Notes under the pieces: generated by a model
Databases searched by the model: none
What the model was told of the DNA's origin: nothing
The model's input: the letters and a program-made list of their open reading frames with translations, nothing else
Shown: positions 5,959 to 54,517 of the stretch, piece by piece
Layout of the letters: each line of letters opens with the position of its first letter
How positions within the stretch are numbered: position 1 is the stretch's first letter
Translations under genes and position numbers: made by a program
Origin: Candidatus Poribacteria bacterium
GTDB taxonomy: Bacteria > Poribacteria > WGA-4E > JAJDTR01
Direction of reading: 5' to 3'
Length of the DNA stretch: 64,000 bases
Assembly (NCBI GenBank): GCA_022827055.1
Contig: JAJDTR010000062.1
Location: forward strand, 1 to 64,000

Positions 5959-6927
5959 ATGTCATTCAAAGTTGGACGCACCTTCGCGACAGCGCTTGTC
6001 ATCTCCCTGTTTATCCAGATGCAAATTGCAGAAAATGGTTACGCCTTTCGCAGAACCAAGATAGCCTTCACCTCTATGCGTGACGACAATATTGATATTT
6101 ATGTCATGGACGTCGACGGGAGAAACCAAAGAAGAGTAACGGTAAATCCGGCAAGGGACGAATATCCGGCATGGTCTCCCGACGGCAAAAAGATTGCCTT
6201 TGTTTCCAATAGAAACAATGAAAACACAGATCACAAGCAAATCTGGGTGATCGACGCCGACGGGAAGAACCCGATTAGACTGACGGACGGGTTGGTGGAC
6301 ACTTATCCGGACTGGTCGCCGGACGGCACGAAAATCCTGTACGACGCCCATCTTGTTCCAGAGGACCATGATTTAGCGCCCGGTGGGATTGCCGTGATGG
6401 ATGCGGATGGGAGCAACAAGAGCCTAGTTAATAATGCAAGAGGCTTGCATCCGACCTGGTCGCCCGATGGCAAAAGGATAGCATTTATCTCCGGTAGAAG
6501 AATTTACGTAATGAATGTCGACGGACGAAATCGGAGGCGGTTAACGCGTGACGTTGTGCACAAACGTTTGCCATCATGGTCACCCGACGGGAAGCGCATC
6601 GCGTATGTGGGCGATAACGTGATTTGGGTGGTGGATAGCGACGGAAAGAATCCGAGGGAACTCACGGAGCATGTTACGGAAGAACACCCAACATGGTCAC
6701 CGGACAGTGAATTTATCGCGTTTACCTCTTTTGGAAGGGATCCTGGATACATTGGGATTTACACGGTGGATGTAACTGACGGCACGGTCGACGCTTTGCT
6801 ACGTGATCCCGATTCCTTGAATCTCGACCCGGATTGGCTATATCCCAGAGGACTCTCCGTTTCGCCGGAGGGCAGCGGAATTACAATATGGGGGAGGCTG
6901 AAGAATTTGGCGTCCAGCCTTCGATGA
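5959..6927 (+). CDS. PD40/TolB-like beta-propeller protein, array gene 6 (subfamily A1)
   Basis: 322 residues, signal peptide MSFKVGRTFATALVISLFIQ. The start is the ATG at 5959 with GGAGG five bases upstream; an in-frame TTG at 5947 overlaps that ribosome site and is rejected. It is the closest relative of genes 2 and 5, but blade 4 is shortened to ISGRRIYVMNVDG. The last blade [18 protein letters not shown] resembles gene 2. The tail ends WGRLKNLASSLR. Confidence 0.9.
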   Translation: MSFKVGRTFATALVISLFIQMQIAENGYAFRRTKIAFTSMRDDNIDIYVMDVDGRNQRRVTVNPARDEYPAWSPDGKKIAFVSNRNNENTDHKQIWVIDADGKNPIRLTDGLVDTYPDWSPDGTKILYDAHLVPEDHDLAPGGIAVMDADGSNKSLVNNARGLHPTWSPDGKRIAFISGRRIYVMNVDGRNRRRLTRDVVHKRLPSWSPDGKRIAYVGDNVIWVVDSDGKNPRELTEHVTEEHPTWSPDSEFIAFTSFGRDPGYIGIYTVDVTDGTVDALLRDPDSLNLDPDWLYPRGLSVSPEGSGITIWGRLKNLASSLR

Positions 6928-18787: not shown

Positions 18788-19897
18788 ACTATGCGCGGGC
18801 GGGCGGCGGTTAACAATGTCTGAACTGTGATTTATGTGATTACGGGATTACCTTGATTGTAAGTGTTTAGAGCCTGTTTGATAAGTTGATAGCAAAGCTA
18901 TTTTGGGTCATTTGAAGGCTGCTTTTTCGATGTTTGAATAATTGCCCGTTATATACCTGTCGCCCCGCTGGGTCTTGGGTTCACGGAGCTTTTGCACTTC
19001 TATACACCTTCAAGAGCTCTATCGCACTCGCTATTCGCTCATTTGATCCCCTCTGGGCTTTTGAAGGCTGGTGCGCAGTGCGCACCCTACAAACGTATTT
19101 TTCAAACAGGCTCTTAGTTACGAGCCTTGAGCTGACTATTCCGCATCTTGAAGCCATTAGGATTTAGGGAAGAAATCTAGTCCTTAAGAAAAAAGATGTC
19201 TATCAATCACACGAACGAATATTTAGGACGGTAGAAGTCGAATAGTGGGCGGGGGACTTACTATCGCGCTCCCTGTTCAGTCGCTTGATCTCAGTTGATC
19301 TATTCGTTCGTTTGATCTCGCTTGATGGTTCATCGCAACTTACGAATATGACAGGGTAATTCCATAATTTGCACCGTGCAGGGCAGCGGACATTAGATGC
19401 TTGACCGGTTCCGTGCACCGGCGCCGCGAAAACCGTTTGGGGGAGCGGGATGATTCGGTTTTCCACTGGCACGGATGTTGCGCTTTGGGCGAATCGTACA
19501 CTTCTATCCGAGACTTGCGCACCATGCCTTGATACATAGCGCACGTTGTTGCTTACAAGATCGTAGTCATGGACCGTCGTTTTTAATTCAGAAATGGAGC
19601 GTGAGTGTTGCGGACGGTAGGAGGAATCAAGCGAGTGGATAGATCAACTGACCGAATAGGGAAGGCGATAGGGATCTTAGTGCGATAGAAAATCCTTCCG
19701 ATTCCCGACCGTCGCGATTCGGAGAAAATCTCTATCGCAGGACTAGCTATCGCGGTCGCTATCCGCTCCCTTGATCTCATTATCCATTCGCTTGATTGAA
19801 AGAACTCCCTGCCGTCAGTTTGCGCCAAAAATGCGGTGATGTGTGCTTGATTTCTTGCAATCGGAAACCTTGGGTATCCATGAAGGAGGAGGGACCG
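18788..19897. repeat. 1.1-kb spacer: split spacer repeat, MITE-like insertion, other repeats
   Basis: Bases 18807-18866 and 19117-19255 are the two halves of the long spacer repeat, split by the element at 18870-19113. CTATCG...CTTGATC units lie at 19255-19330, 19625-19690 (reversed) and 19733-19797. Bases 19330-19580 show no repeat and no convincing gene. AAGGAGG precedes gene 16. Confidence 0.7.
18870..19113. mobile_element. MITE-like element, 244 bp, GAGCCTGTTTGA ends, TTA target duplication
   Basis: The ends are GAGCCTGTTTGA and TCAAACAGGCTC, a perfect 12-base inverted repeat. TTA flanks both sides (18867-18869 and 19114-19116). The sister spacers at 1700, 4190, 5540 and 16160 lack the insert. 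Ends starting GAGCCTG with a 3-base T-N-A duplication suggest mobilisation by an IS5-family (IS1031/ISL2-like) transposase; that is inference. A CTATCG...TTTGATC unit and a TGGTGCGCAGTGCGCACC hairpin lie inside. No transposase gene. Confidence 0.8.
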
Positions 19898-20899
19898 ATG
19901 TTATTCAAAGTTAGACGCCTGCTCGGAGCGGCGCTTATCGTGTCCGTATTCATCCAGATGCACATCGCGAATAGCGGTTACGCCACAGGGAGACCCAAGA
20001 TTGCTTTCAGCTCCACGAGAGACGGAGACAGTGAAATTTACATGATGGATATCGACGGAGGCAATCAGGTAAGACTGACGATTAACCCGGCGCGAGACTA
20101 TGATCCGTCGTGGTCCGCCGACGGCGATAGGATAGCGTTTGTCTCGAACAGAAACAGAGGAATTGAACAGATCTTCGTGATGGATGCCGATGGGGGTAAT
20201 GTCACGGAACTGACGACGCAATGGATACATCAGCAACCGGCCTGGTCCCCCATAGCAGAAAGGATTGCCTACGTTCGCAACCGAGGAGGTCGGCAGGTTT
20301 GGGTAATGGACGCCGACGGGGGTAACCAGAGACGTTTGACTCAAGATGGAAAGAACGAACTGCCAACCTGGTCGCCCGACGGTAAACGAATTGCGTTCCT
20401 ATCCACCAGGGAACCGGGAAGCCACCTCTACCTCATGGACGAGAATGGAGAGAATCAGGAAAGCCCTACGCAAGACATGCTGCCCAAGGACGCCCCCTCG
20501 TGGTCGCCCGACGGTCAATGGATTGCGTATTCAGCGATTGATGACAGACACATTATTCAAATCTATGCGGTTAGAGTCGTTGGCGTCCCGCATTTGAAAA
20601 AACTTACACGCGACGGTCCGTACAAATTGCAGCCGGCGTGGTCACCGGACGGGAACACGATCACATACACGTCATGGGAATTTAAATGGGATTTTGATCT
20701 CAATCGTGTCAAACGTGAGCAGAAGACGATTCACGTGATGACTTCCGAGGGAAAGCACCTAAAACAACTCAGTGAGAACCACGGCGGCAATGATACCGAT
20801 CCCGATTGGTTAAATCGGAAAGCATGGTCTGTGTCTCCAGCGGAGAACTTCGCCACGACTTGGGGCGAGATTAAAAGGGAACCGGCCGGTAGTCGATGA
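19898..20899 (+). CDS. PD40/TolB-like beta-propeller protein, array gene 16 (subfamily B)
   Basis: 333 residues, the longest copy, signal peptide MLFKVRRLLGAALIVSVFIQ. An in-frame ATG at 19880 contains the AAGGAGG site and is rejected. It is nearly identical to gene 17 through six blades (both read [20 protein letters not shown]), but has about seven extra residues in the last blade (EFKWDFDLNRVKREQ). One turn has become WSPIA. This pair is the most recent duplication in the array. Confidence 0.9.
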   Translation: MLFKVRRLLGAALIVSVFIQMHIANSGYATGRPKIAFSSTRDGDSEIYMMDIDGGNQVRLTINPARDYDPSWSADGDRIAFVSNRNRGIEQIFVMDADGGNVTELTTQWIHQQPAWSPIAERIAYVRNRGGRQVWVMDADGGNQRRLTQDGKNELPTWSPDGKRIAFLSTREPGSHLYLMDENGENQESPTQDMLPKDAPSWSPDGQWIAYSAIDDRHIIQIYAVRVVGVPHLKKLTRDGPYKLQPAWSPDGNTITYTSWEFKWDFDLNRVKREQKTIHVMTSEGKHLKQLSENHGGNDTDPDWLNRKAWSVSPAENFATTWGEIKREPAGSR

Positions 20900-20949
20900 T
20901 GTGTTCAGGGCGCTTGAAACTTCAGATATTTCCAAAAACGGAGGCAAAA

Positions 20950-21927
20950 ATGTCGTTCAAAGTTAGACGATGCTTGACTACCGTGGTTGTCTTCTCCCTG
21001 CTGATCCAGGTGCAATTCGCCGTGAACGGTTACGCCACATGGAAATCCAAGATTGCTTTCAGCTCCACGAGAGACGGAGACAGCGAAATCTACGTGATGG
21101 AAATCGACGGAAGCAATCAGGTAAGACTAACGATTAACCCGGCGCGAGACTATGATCCGTCGTGGTCTGCCGACGGCGATAGGATCGCGTTCGTCTCCAA
21201 CAGAAACAGAGGAATTGAACAGATCTTCGTGATGGATGCCGATGGGGGTAATGTCACGGAACTGACAACGCAATGGACACATCAGCAACCGGCGTGGTCT
21301 CCCAAAGCAGAAAAGATTGCCTACGTTCGCAACCGAGGAGGTCGGCAGGTTTGGATAATGGACGCCGACGGGGGTAACCAGAGACGTTTGACTCAAGATG
21401 GAAAGAACGAGCTGCCAACCTGGTCGCCTGACGGTAAACGAATTGCGTTCCTATCCACCAGGGAACCGAGAAGCCACCTCTACGTCATGGACGAGAATGG
21501 AGAGAATCAGGAAAGCCCTACGCAAGACATGCTGCCGAAGGACGCTCCCTCGTGGTCGCCCGACGGTCAATGGATCGCGTATGCAGCGACTGACGAAACA
21601 CACATTATTCAAATCTATGCTGTTAGAGTCGTTGGCGTCCCGCATTTAGAAAAACTAACACGCGACGGCCCGCGCAAATTGCAGCCGGCGTGGTCACCGG
21701 ACGGGAACACGATCGCATACACGTCGTGGGTATTCAATCTCAAACGCGATCAGAAGACGATTCATGTGATGACTTCCGAGGGAAAGCACCTGAAACAACT
21801 CAGTGAGAACCACCGCGGCAATGATACCGATCCCGATTGGTTAAATCGGAAAGGATGGTCTGTGTCTCCAGCCGCAAACGTCGTCACTATCTGGGGCGAG
21901 ATAAAAAAGCCGCCAACGGGTCGTTGA
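20950..21927 (+). CDS. PD40/TolB-like beta-propeller protein, array gene 17 (subfamily B)
   Basis: 325 residues, signal peptide MSFKVRRCLTTVVVFSLLIQ, start supported by CGGAGG. The signal peptide and leader differ from gene 16, but the mature part is almost the same, so the duplication or conversion tract covered only the propeller. One turn is WSPKA. The tail ends WGEIKKPPTGR. Confidence 0.9.
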   Translation: MSFKVRRCLTTVVVFSLLIQVQFAVNGYATWKSKIAFSSTRDGDSEIYVMEIDGSNQVRLTINPARDYDPSWSADGDRIAFVSNRNRGIEQIFVMDADGGNVTELTTQWTHQQPAWSPKAEKIAYVRNRGGRQVWIMDADGGNQRRLTQDGKNELPTWSPDGKRIAFLSTREPRSHLYVMDENGENQESPTQDMLPKDAPSWSPDGQWIAYAATDETHIIQIYAVRVVGVPHLEKLTRDGPRKLQPAWSPDGNTIAYTSWVFNLKRDQKTIHVMTSEGKHLKQLSENHRGNDTDPDWLNRKGWSVSPAANVVTIWGEIKKPPTGR

Positions 21928-21981: not shown

Positions 21982-22293
21982 ATGTCATTCAAAACGAGAC
22001 GATTATTGACGGCAGTGTTTGTCCTCTCTCTATTCATCCAGATCCACATTGCGGGTTACGGTTACGCTTCGCCTCGAGCCAAGATTGCTTTTACCTGCTT
22101 TCCAGACGGGAATTACGAAATATGCGTTATGGACATTGACGGAGGAAATGAGGTAAGGCTCACGGATGATCCTGCAAAGGACCATGAACCGTCGTGGTCG
22201 CCCGACGGACGAACGATTGGATATGTGTCTTCTAAAGACCTAAAACCGTCCCGCTCCCCAACCAACTTCAAGGCGACAATTACTGATTTCTAA
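21982..22293 (+). pseudogene. Truncated PD40 propeller, array gene 18
   Basis: The start is intact (TAGGAGG, MSFKTRRLLTAVFVLSLFIQ, blade 1 FTCFPDGNYEICVMD, turn SWSPDGRTIGYVSS), but after about residue 83 similarity ends and about 20 unrelated residues run to a stop. The break is followed by AT-rich DNA carrying hicBA. The fragment has one and a half blades and cannot fold as a propeller. Confidence 0.85.
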
Positions 22294-22404
22294 GTAGGGA
22301 CTATAGGTTGAGATTGCTAGATACGGACGATGTCACGGTTGATTAATTATCCTCTGCTTTTTCCGATATGAAAGGTTATCATTAACTAAACTAAACAATC
22401 TGCA

Positions 22405-22434
22405 TCCACGTCTACTTGCGCAAGTAGACGTGGA
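22405..22434. promoter_or_regulatory. 30-bp perfect palindrome before hicBA
   Basis: The left half TCCACGTCTACTTGC is followed immediately by its exact reverse complement. It lies 47 bases upstream of the hicB -35 box. It could be an operator, a terminator stem with no T-run, or one end of the inserted DNA. Confidence 0.5.
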
Positions 22435-22480
22435 CGTCCATAATTTCAGAAAAATTGGAACAAGAGGGGCAACTTTTTTG

Positions 22481-22509
22481 TTGTTTACTCGTGTGGGTTT
22501 ACGTATAAT
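22481..22509 (+). promoter_or_regulatory. Promoter of hicBA copy 1
   Basis: TTGTTT, 17 bases, TATAAT, about 80 bases upstream of the hicB start. The spacing is ideal for the housekeeping sigma factor and the -10 box is perfect. Confidence 0.6.
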
Positions 22510-22589
22510 TGAATAGCATCCAATGAAAGTGACATCACCACAATCCAAGAGTAACTAAAAGGAAAACTCAAAATGGGGATGTTTTTACC

Positions 22590-22931
22590 ATGGAATTATC
22601 TTTTGCCATAACCTTAATTGTGGAAGAACAGATTAATGGCTATTACATAGCCACTTGTGAAGAACTTCCAGAATTTCTTACTGGCGGTGAAACCTTCGAG
22701 GAAGTAAGGGAAAACGTGCTTGATGCGTTTATTTCCACTTTGGAAATATATCAGCATTCAAACCGAAAATTGCCAGAAGGCATTATTGTAAAAGGTATTG
22801 AATTGTCCAAACCAAGATTTGCAACAATAACGCCCAAGCGCACAGTTGAGAATGATTTGGATGATTTTTGGTTCAGAGCCAATCTGCCCAGTCCACCTAA
22901 TATTGATGTACCAATCCCTGTATATGCATGA
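22590..22931 (+). CDS. hicB: HicB-family antitoxin, copy 1
   Basis: 113 residues. The N-terminal partial RNase H-like fold of HicB is recognisable at residues 1-55 (LIVEEQINGYYIATCEELPEF and GGETFEEVRENVLDAFISTLEIY). The C-terminal 50 residues are unlike the usual DNA-binding domain. HicB neutralises the HicA mRNA interferase and normally represses its own operon. Its stop overlaps the hicA start as ATGA, the usual sign of coupled translation. The module is more AT-rich than the array around it, consistent with transfer. Confidence 0.85.
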   Translation: MELSFAITLIVEEQINGYYIATCEELPEFLTGGETFEEVRENVLDAFISTLEIYQHSNRKLPEGIIVKGIELSKPRFATITPKRTVENDLDDFWFRANLPSPPNIDVPIPVYA

Positions 22932-23155
22932 AATACCGAGAGGTAGTCAAGAGAATGAAAAGGAAGGGATATTCCTGCTATGAGATAAACCGTGGCAACA
23001 GGGGTTCTCATAGAAGTTGGTATAACCCTGAAACAGGGAAGTATTCTATGCTTCCGTATCACGGCAATAAGGACATAGACAAAGGGCTTCTTTGTAGTTT
23101 GATTAAAGCCAAGGGTGAAATATCTCTTGGCTTTTTTTATTCATTCAGAGGAAAA
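22928..23155 (+). CDS. hicA: HicA-family toxin, copy 1, without its own stop codon
   Basis: HicA is a double-stranded-RNA-binding-like mRNA interferase. Residues 1-62 fit the family: a helix MKYREVVKRMKRKGY, the catalytic histidine in RGSHRSWYNPETGK, and PYHGNKDIDKGLLCSLIKAKG. The reading frame does not stop. It passes through a terminator-like hairpin and enters propeller gene 19 in frame at 23156, giving a potential 397-residue fusion. Either the native 3' end was lost at the insertion point or a stop was mutated. Translation of gene 19 probably starts at its own ATG. Confidence 0.75.
23106..23138 (+). terminator. Terminator-like hairpin at the hicA/gene 19 joint
   Basis: The stem AAGCCAAG/CTTGGCTT with a 12-base loop is followed directly by a run of T. 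It lies inside the joined frame, 18 bases before the gene 19 start, so it would stop hicBA transcripts before gene 19. Confidence 0.65.
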
Positions 23156-24121
23156 ATGTCAATCAAAGTTGGACGGTGCTTGACGACGGTGATAGTCTTC
23201 TCCTTGTTAATCCAGATGCAATTTACAGTGAACGGTTACGCCGCCCGCGGCACCAAGATCGCGTTCACCTCTACGAGGCATAACGGGTTCAGTGAAATCT
23301 ACATTATGGACGGTGACGGAGGCAACCAGGTGAGACTAACGTATCACGCGGGGCGTGACGGAGGCGCGTCATGGTCGCCCGACGGCAGAAGGATCGCGTT
23401 TGTCTCCAACCGAGATCGCGGATATGACCGCATCTACGTCATGGATGCCGACGGACAGAATATGAAGAGACTAACAAAGGATTCGACCAATCGACATCCG
23501 GCGTGGTCGCCCGACGGAGGAAGGATTGCGTTCACTCGCAATACCCAGATTTGCGTCATGGACACCGACGGGAAAAACCTCGTACCGTTAACGCATATAG
23601 GATACAACAGTCAGCCAGCTTGGTCGCCCGATGGAACAAGAATCGCCTTCGTATCCCATCGAGACGGAGGCCCCGAAATCTACGTCATGGATGAAAATGG
23701 TGACAATCAGGAAAGACGAACCGGCAATAAGGCGGTCAAAAGCGCTCCCGCGTGGTCGCCCGACGGTCGATGGATCGCGTATTCCTCTCTTGATCTACAA
23801 AGGGTTTTTCAAATCTACGTCGTGAGATCCGAAGGGGTTCCTCTAAAAAAGAAGCTAACGCGCAAACCGCCGGATAAATTTCATCCCGTATGGTCGCCGG
23901 ACGGCGATACGATCGCATACACGTCAGCGGTCGCCTTCGGGAATACAAGGATTCACCTGATGAGTGACAAGGGAATTTTCCTCAAACAGTTCCGTGAGGT
24001 CGGCAATGGATCGGACTTGAGTCCCGATTGGGTTGACCCTGCCGCATGGTCGGTGCCGCCGGCCGAAAACGTTGTCACTAGCTGGGGAAAGATTAAAAAG
24101 CCAAGATCGGCTCTTCAATGA
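23156..24121 (+). CDS. PD40/TolB-like beta-propeller protein, array gene 19 (subfamily B)
   Basis: 321 residues, signal peptide MSIKVGRCLTTVIVFSLLIQ. The start is the ATG at 23156 with GAGG upstream and family alignment. The leader normally found before array genes is gone, replaced by hicA. All six turns read WSPDG, the best preserved set in the array. The last lines SVPPAENVVTSWGKIKKPRSALQ diverge slightly, and the final residue is Q instead of R. Confidence 0.88.
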   Translation: MSIKVGRCLTTVIVFSLLIQMQFTVNGYAARGTKIAFTSTRHNGFSEIYIMDGDGGNQVRLTYHAGRDGGASWSPDGRRIAFVSNRDRGYDRIYVMDADGQNMKRLTKDSTNRHPAWSPDGGRIAFTRNTQICVMDTDGKNLVPLTHIGYNSQPAWSPDGTRIAFVSHRDGGPEIYVMDENGDNQERRTGNKAVKSAPAWSPDGRWIAYSSLDLQRVFQIYVVRSEGVPLKKKLTRKPPDKFHPVWSPDGDTIAYTSAVAFGNTRIHLMSDKGIFLKQFREVGNGSDLSPDWVDPAAWSVPPAENVVTSWGKIKKPRSALQ

Positions 24122-44136: not shown

Positions 44137-44352
44137 TTAAGCGTCCATAAAATCTTCCCATTCTATTCCGAGTTGTTTCACTATCTTTTTTACAGTGTGA
44201 ACTGCAAACTCATTGGAATTATAGGATATGACTGTAGATTTATCCGGTAATGATGGGTTTCTCCATTTATAATGAGAACCACTATTGCGCTTTTCCAATT
44301 CTATGCAACCTAGAGCATTGAGTTTTTTCAAAATAATACGGCGTTTCGCTAT
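44137..44352 (-). CDS. hicA: HicA-family toxin, copy 2, without a standard start codon
   Basis: About 71 residues. The HicA signature is clear: KKLNALGCIELEKRNSGSHY with catalytic H, KWRNPSLPDK, and a C-terminal VKKIVKQLGIEWEDFMDA. Where copy 1 and copy 4 have ATGA overlapping the hicB stop, this locus has ATAG, so the expected start is ATA. The first usable codon is TTG at 44331, which would remove the first half of helix 1. Toxin output may be low or absent. Confidence 0.7.
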   Translation of the reverse strand: MAKRRIILKKLNALGCIELEKRNSGSHYKWRNPSLPDKSTVISYNSNEFAVHTVKKIVKQLGIEWEDFMDA

Positions 44353-44687
44353 GCTTGAAGATACACTTCTCTAGGCGGAGTATTCAGTTCATTTAAGTTA
44401 AGGGACACAAGAGAAGAGGTCTTCCGAGCACGAAATGTACTCCTGTTTTTACTGTACTGATGAAGTTTCTTCTCAGCATAAATTGACTCCGGTAATTCTT
44501 TCCCTAAGTCTTCATACAATTCTAAAACTGACACAAATGCATCAATTGTATTGTCTAATGCATCATCTATGGTTTTACCTTCCGTTATAAGTTCTGGAAG
44601 TTCCTTACAAGTAACAGTATAAACTTGCTCTGGCTGATATTCCAAAATCACAGTCAATACGAAGTGGACTGTAACTTGATTTTTCAC
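44349..44687 (-). CDS. hicB: HicB-family antitoxin, copy 2
   Basis: 112 residues starting at GTG, with AGGAGA 9 bases upstream. The HicB fold covers residues 8-60 (FVLTVILEYQPEQVYTVTCK, ELPELITEGKTIDDALDNTI, DAFVSVLELYEDLGK). The C-terminus is basic (KLHQYSKNRSTFRARKTSS), which could bind DNA. Organisation hicB then hicA, as in copies 1 and 4. The region is AT-rich. Confidence 0.85.
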   Translation of the reverse strand: MKNQVTVHFVLTVILEYQPEQVYTVTCKELPELITEGKTIDDALDNTIDAFVSVLELYEDLGKELPESIYAEKKLHQYSKNRSTFRARKTSSLVSLNLNELNTPPREVYLQA

Positions 44688-51646: not shown

Positions 51647-51828
51647 AACGGCGGAATCTTGAACAGCATCTCAGAAAACACGGATGTGTTCTGGAAAGAG
51701 AAAGTTAACATGCCATTTGGAAGAATCCGACATTTAATGTCATCAGTGCAATGCCACGACACGCCGAAATACCTAGGTGAACAGTCAGGGCGATCTGCCG
51801 TGATTTAAGAATTCCCAGTCCCTTCTAA
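51643..51828 (+). pseudogene. hicA: HicA toxin, copy 4, broken by two in-frame stops
   Basis: In one frame: MKRRNLEQHLRKHGCVLERE-S, TAA (51706), HAIWKNPTFNVISAMPRHAE-I-P-R, TGA (51778), TVRAICRDLRIPSPF, TAA. This is a full HicA with the catalytic histidine in H-A-I-W, interrupted only by the two stops. Toxin activity must be lost, leaving an orphan antitoxin. Confidence 0.85.
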
Positions 51829-53995: not shown

Positions 53996-54517
53996 ATGGA
54001 TAGCAACCTAAGCGTGAATTTGGCAGAGCAACCGGAGGGCGGTTATACGCTAACCAGCAACGACCTGCCCGAACTCGTGACCGAAGGGGATTCGGTAGAG
54101 GAGGCGATGGAGAATCTGAAGGATGCGTACGCCGCGGCGCTTGAACTGTATGAGGATTTGGGGCGTCCCGCACACGCTGGCGGGGAGAAGCCCCCCGAGG
54201 GAGGCCCACGGTTTGCGGCATTTCCGCTCGAATCGCGGATTGATTCCGATGCAGATGTGCCCCCGGATAACGGTCAGCTTCGGTTTGAGGCAACGCTCTG
54301 CGAGTATGAATTGAGGCTGCCTGCACGAAAGCTGAGGGCGCTGGGGTGTGAGGAACAATTGAGGCGGGAGCGTGTATCGCACCGGATATGGCGAAACCCC
54401 CTTACCGGGGGTTCGGCGGTCGTGCCGGATTACGGGAGCCGTGATTTGAGGGTCGGGACGATTCGGGCGGTGCTGCGGAATCTGGGGGTTGGATGGGAGG
54501 AGTTTTTGAGGGGATGA
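53996..54517 (+). CDS. HicB-HicA single-chain fusion, copy 3
   Basis: 173 residues. Residues 1-60 are a HicB fold (VNLAEQPEGGYTLTSNDLPE, LVTEGDSVEEAMENLKDAYA, AALELYEDLG). Residues 61-103 are a linker that replaces the HicB C-terminus. Residues 104-173 are HicA-like: LPARKLRALGCEEQLRRERV, SHRIWRNPLTGGSAVVPDYG, VGTIRAVLRNLGVGWEEFLR. The catalytic histidine is kept (V-S-H-R), although the usual G before S-H is V. The domain order is the same as gene order hicB-hicA in copies 1, 2 and 4, so loss of the hicB stop is a simple origin. Activity unknown. Confidence 0.8.
   Translation: MDSNLSVNLAEQPEGGYTLTSNDLPELVTEGDSVEEAMENLKDAYAAALELYEDLGRPAHAGGEKPPEGGPRFAAFPLESRIDSDADVPPDNGQLRFEATLCEYELRLPARKLRALGCEEQLRRERVSHRIWRNPLTGGSAVVPDYGSRDLRVGTIRAVLRNLGVGWEEFLRG

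Follow-up and report, generated by a model that had tools for sequence, protein, structure and literature searches.

A hicBA module inside a Poribacteria propeller gene and the probable loss of its toxin end by a 59-bp deletion

In the window analysed here, a stretch of 64,000 nucleotides from a Candidatus Poribacteria bacterium (assembly GCA_022827055.1, contig JAJDTR010000062.1), a hicBA toxin-antitoxin pair lies between a broken and an intact gene for a PD40 propeller protein, and the toxin gene has no stop codon of its own before the intact propeller gene begins. The locus raises the question of how the pair came to lie within a propeller array, how its toxin gene came to be open at the end, and whether the long frame that runs from toxin into propeller has a meaning of its own. 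The window makes up the opening 64 kb of its contig, one of 171 over which the genome (5.57 Mb) is distributed. The comparison relies on one congener, Candidatus Poribacteria RHO2_bin_20, which belongs to the same genus, carries its locus on a contig of 44148 bases (L075 in the coordinates below) and is the sole congener compared. The features discussed are collected in Table 1.

Table 1 Features of the hicBA locus and its propeller neighbours, in window coordinates
Feature	Position	Strand	Description	Evidence
Gene 17	20896..21927	+	Intact PD40 propeller, left neighbour	ORF; PD40 E 8.1e-41
Gene 18 5' remnant	21982..22293	+	103-aa ORF, interrupted propeller gene
Inserted cassette	22236..23144 (approximate)	+	Low G+C, common to congener	Alignment of orthologous loci
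Palindrome	22405..22434	.	Perfect, 30 bp	Congener counterpart 26 bp, L075:5478-5503
Possible promoter	22481..22509	+	TTGTTT-17-TATAAT	By eye; congener has the same two hexamers
hicB antitoxin	22590..22931	+	113 aa	334/342 bases identical in congener
hicA retained core	22928..23110	+	Residues 1-61, with GSH motif and His28	PF07927; alignment with 13 relatives; AlphaFold
59-bp deletion site	23097..23110	+	One remaining copy of a 14-nt sequence, with one mismatch
Intrinsic terminator of hicBA operon	23105..23138	+	Inside the open hicA frame
Second junction	23144..23148	.	Common sequence stops, gene 19 leader starts
Gene 19	23156..24121	+	Intact propeller, in phase with hicA; ribosome site (AGAGGA) and start codon of its own

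The hicBA pair and its place in a propeller gene

The HicB of the window, searched by itself, gave no Pfam match, no DNA-binding domain was found in it by Pfam, and NCBIfam returned nothing useful. A profile built from 16 sequences (the window HicB and 15 relatives) did, however, recover HicB antitoxins of solved structure, 6hpb and 6u0i, with an E value of 5.9e-09. The HicA is recognised directly by HicA_toxin PF07927 (E about 1e-11 to 1.6e-10), and the residues G26, S27 and H28 are invariant in an alignment of 14 HicA sequences, comprising the window and 13 relatives; His28 bears the residue number given for YpHicA3 (PMC11594946). The HicA core was modelled by AlphaFold with a mean pLDDT of 74 as a helix, three strands and a helix. 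An earlier model, built on just two sequences, was of poor quality, with a mean pLDDT of 62, and was set aside. Judged as a type II HicBA pair, the module thus possesses a HicA domain with the GSH motif and, on the strength of the profile match, an adjacent HicB, the two genes overlapping by ATGA; a complete hicA with its own stop is absent in the window and present in the congener. Among the classes described in a survey of HicA (PMC10865869), the module resembles Class 2 in the order hicB-hicA, in its small HicB without a recognised DNA-binding domain and in the usual size of the congener HicA. It differs from that class in the length of HicB, which at 113 codons is slightly above the 63-103 of Class 2, and in the window hicA, which lacks its end and stop.

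The preliminary description had placed the break in gene 18 after about 83 residues and had taken hicBA for an insertion into a propeller gene, and both statements hold up on comparison. Gene 18 resembles intact propellers only as far as residue 84-86, and the G+C content of 22300-23145 is 38.5% as against 52-53% in genes 17 and 19. The two loci align through gene 17 (orthologue L075:4022-4999; DNA identity 90% over 881 bases), the 5' remnant of gene 18 (L075:5053-5364), hicB, hicA and the terminator, and the congener retains a 3' remnant of the interrupted gene in addition to the 5' one. Propeller homology resumes in that 3' remnant near residue 268 of 325, which means a loss of some 180 codons from the interrupted gene. 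The alignment and composition therefore support a hicBA pair of differing composition seated inside a PD40 propeller gene. Because the left boundary and the gene remnants are common to both loci, the insertion, on this alignment, preceded the divergence of the two species.

The origin of the cassette was sought in several directions. A contig search across genomes found the locus in no genome but the congener, and no copy of the cassette occurs elsewhere in the own genome or in the congener. A tblastn search of HicB against plasmids and phages gave no match, nor did a pattern scan of viral contigs. No empty site, that is, a propeller gene without the module, was found, both species compared carrying the module. 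Upstream of hicB the cassette contains a perfect palindrome, of which neither genome holds a further copy; in the congener its centre is altered at two symmetric positions (GCGC to GTAC) and the symmetry is kept. The possible promoter behind the palindrome was recognised by eye and is not listed by a consensus promoter scan, as it falls below the scan threshold.

Loss of the hicA stop codon

A terminator hairpin had been described as following hicBA. The hairpin itself is well founded, as its stem (23105-23134) is followed by a T run and has a stability of -18.4 kcal/mol (z -5.4), none of 200 shuffles was as stable, and 47 of the 48 bases of 23097-23144 are identical in the congener. Its position had been misread, in that it lies inside the open hicA frame and not behind hicA. 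The congener hicA encodes 71 aa and ends at a normal stop upstream of the same terminator, and its protein covers PF07927 in full (model positions 1-58), as against positions 1-55 for the window protein. In the stretch from the end of hicA to the terminator, the congener exceeds the window by 59 bases. A 14-nt direct repeat stands in the congener at 6166 and 6225 of L075, 59 bp apart, and occurs once in the window (23097), where the sole copy has one substitution relative to both congener copies; the same repeat was scored as a 22-nt repeat of 86% as well. By this alignment, a 59-bp deletion took the last ten HicA residues, the stop codon and a spacer, with the result that the terminator now falls inside the hicA reading frame. 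The flanking repeats suggest slippage or a short-repeat mechanism. The preliminary description had named a normal hicA stop in a relative as the sign of a local mutation, and this is the situation that the congener presents.

A wider comparison of hicA genes points in the same direction. Of 41 hicA loci given, 37 matched the protein query; the four others came from a Pfam search of the own genome and gave no match to that query at E 1e-3. Most of the matched loci (31/37) end at 68-77 aa, another four are short or interrupted, one is cut off by the end of its contig, and the only long hicA among them is that of the window. A loose C-terminal motif of the GI-x-W-x-x-F type is found in 30 of the 31 HicA proteins of 68-77 aa and is absent in the window. 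The prevailing length and the shared C-terminal motif argue that the intact hicA with a stop is the ancestral form.

The sequence common to the two species ends a few bases beyond the T run, the congener continuing into the 3' remnant of gene 18 and the window into the leader of gene 19, whose reciprocal best match lies elsewhere in the congener array (L075 near 13526). With two junctions within about 50 bases of each other, in a repetitive array and a genome of 171 contigs, the deletion or the second junction might be an artefact of assembly that is absent from the organism. We consider this unlikely. Assemblers normally use k-mers longer than 14 nt, so a collapse at a 14-nt repeat is not to be expected, and the substitution in the remaining copy relative to both congener copies speaks against it as well.

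Expected fate of the stopless message

The history that we regard as likely from these comparisons begins with a compact and ordinary hicBA module that entered a tandem PD40 propeller array before the two species split. The lineage of the window would then have lost 59 bp between the 14-nt direct repeats by a slippage-type deletion, and with them the end of hicA and its stop, and a second rearrangement would have set the next propeller gene, gene 19, right behind the terminator, in phase by chance. Most hicBA transcripts would consequently end at the in-frame terminator without a stop codon, ribosomes would stall at the message end, and the HicA product would be tagged by tmRNA/SmpB and degraded, the nonstop message being probably silenced. 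The genome encodes a tmRNA (210.8 bits; tag ADYEELALAA) and, adjoining it, SmpB (E 3.5e-57), and tagging and degradation of a nonstop HicA are therefore to be expected. We infer both the efficiency of termination and the tmRNA tagging at the window hicA from sequence; the anatomy of the locus and the presence of the tmRNA and SmpB genes make it probable that the toxin is either silent or present at a strongly reduced level. As the GSH motif and the core of HicA are kept and the core is modelled as folded, the truncated toxin may still act if it escapes tagging.

The divergence of the module between the two species bears on its present state. From 22598 to 23096, hicBA differs at 11 of 499 positions, whereas the cassette sequence immediately upstream differs at 25 of 261 (p 1.5e-5, two species). 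At third codon positions, hicBA shows 8 differences in 169 and gene 17 shows 44 in 290 (p 6e-4). The dN/dS pairs are 0.015/0.055 for hicB, 0.022/0.065 for hicA and 0.073/0.238 for gene 17, the changes being too few for a test of selection on hicA and the value for gene 17 being perhaps inflated because of its close tandem paralogue, gene 16. Divergence this low is unlike that of a module in long decay, and suggests either that the deletion is recent or that the module is under constraint or has been exchanged; the low value may itself reflect constraint, exchange between the species, or both. It keeps alive the idea that the module of the window still matters.

A comparable arrangement is described for arfA of Escherichia coli, where an in-frame stem-loop is both terminator and RNase III site and the nonstop messages are repressed by trans-translation (PMC10107115). 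The window shares with arfA an intrinsic terminator within an open reading frame and the expectation of a stopless message under tmRNA control. In arfA, however, this is a regulated property, whereas in the window it would have come about through a deletion in a toxin gene of one species. The stopless arrangement is furthermore not conserved, as the stop of the congener is normal and 31 of the 37 matched loci end at 68-77 aa.

By the logic of arfA (PMC10107115), the stopless form could itself be functional, with nonstop HicA kept low by trans-translation and accumulating when ribosome rescue is overloaded. The terminator inside the frame, the encoded tmRNA and SmpB and the low hicBA divergence between the species are all consistent with such a role, and the reported cleavage of tmRNA by E. 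coli HicA (PMC11594946) makes a feedback conceivable. We nevertheless hold this reading to be very unlikely, since the congener and other relatives have the stop and the stopless form is confined to one lineage, the deletion looks like a chance slippage event, and the extension shows no sign of conservation. Its fuller version, a positive feedback loop in which HicA gated by ribosome rescue accumulates on tmRNA overload and then attacks tmRNA, we rate as a shade less probable again; if true, one slippage deletion would have turned HicA into a conditional toxin, gated by ribosome rescue. A literature search on hicA with stop codon and trans-translation found no report, and a search on toxin genes with nonstop mRNA, toxin-antitoxin and tmRNA found none on the subject, as judged by title and the start of the abstract.

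The propeller array, the open frame and the meaning of the locus

The preliminary description had proposed that the unstable propeller array would be stabilised by the module, since its loss would release the toxin, a form of addiction; the array offers this proposal little room. The parallel is with toxin-antitoxin systems proposed as stabilisers of the Vibrio cholerae superintegron (PMC12548467), which the window resembles in having a toxin-antitoxin pair inside an array of related units, in both species. It differs in that the occurrence here is single and the order of the array is not kept, and inspection by eye revealed no integron recombination site. For 11 of the 18 propeller ORFs in the window, the first congener hit is a reciprocal best match. 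Taken in window order, these 11 hits lie at congener positions 21432, 29230, 20005, 18674, 32161, 17684, 37860, 36605, 23998, 3989 and 13367; the array has therefore not been held in order. The right flank of the module has been exchanged in one lineage, the end of the toxin is lost in the window, and among the 41 hicA loci only the two orthologues have at least two PD40 motifs within about 1.5 kb on each side. A stabilising role is in our estimation highly improbable.

Within the same array, the propeller genes 16 and 17 (19796-21927) share their best congener match, L075:4022-4999, at protein identities of 80% and 78%. This points to either tandem duplication or gene conversion within the lineage of the window.

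The preliminary description was right that hicA has no stop ahead of gene 19. An ORF scan found the frame from 22928 free of stops until 24121, which gives 397 aa with HicA_toxin PF07927 at residues 3-60 followed by six PD40 stretches. Such a frame arises easily. When deletions that take away the stop of the congener hicA were enumerated, 1162 of 1792 left the frame free of stops through the whole T run, and between the T run and the ATG of gene 19 none of the three phases contains a stop. With phase agreement at one in three, the chance of an in-frame link between hicA and gene 19 is about 0.2, which is not significant, and the frame thus needs no explanation. On this reckoning, the 397-aa frame is an incidental by-product, in phase by chance, and translation of gene 19 probably begins at its own start. 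That read-through yields a real HicA-signal peptide-propeller protein, as the open frame had suggested, is barely credible, since it would require passage through a strong terminator (z -5.4), gene 19 has an internal start with its own ribosome site, the agreement of phase is at chance level, and there is no obvious sense in placing a cytoplasmic RNase before a signal peptide.

The window holds further hicA loci. An ORF of 173 aa at 53996-54517 joins a HicB-like part to HicA in the order B-A (PF07927 E 2.1e-09 at residues 111-165); it is like the fused proteins that the HicA survey (PMC10865869) places in Class 12, and a similar long frame occurs in the congener (G001:C32:45181-45654). Another hicBA pair is found on the minus strand at 44150-44687, and a decayed hicA with two internal stops at 51652-51810.

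Comparison with one sister genome reduces a striking toxin-propeller frame to an ordinary mutation in two steps. If the stopless hicA still yields toxin when ribosome rescue fails, the locus would link two well-studied systems; otherwise, it would be an example of a chromosomal toxin-antitoxin module that is disarmed at the toxin end and retains its antitoxin intact.
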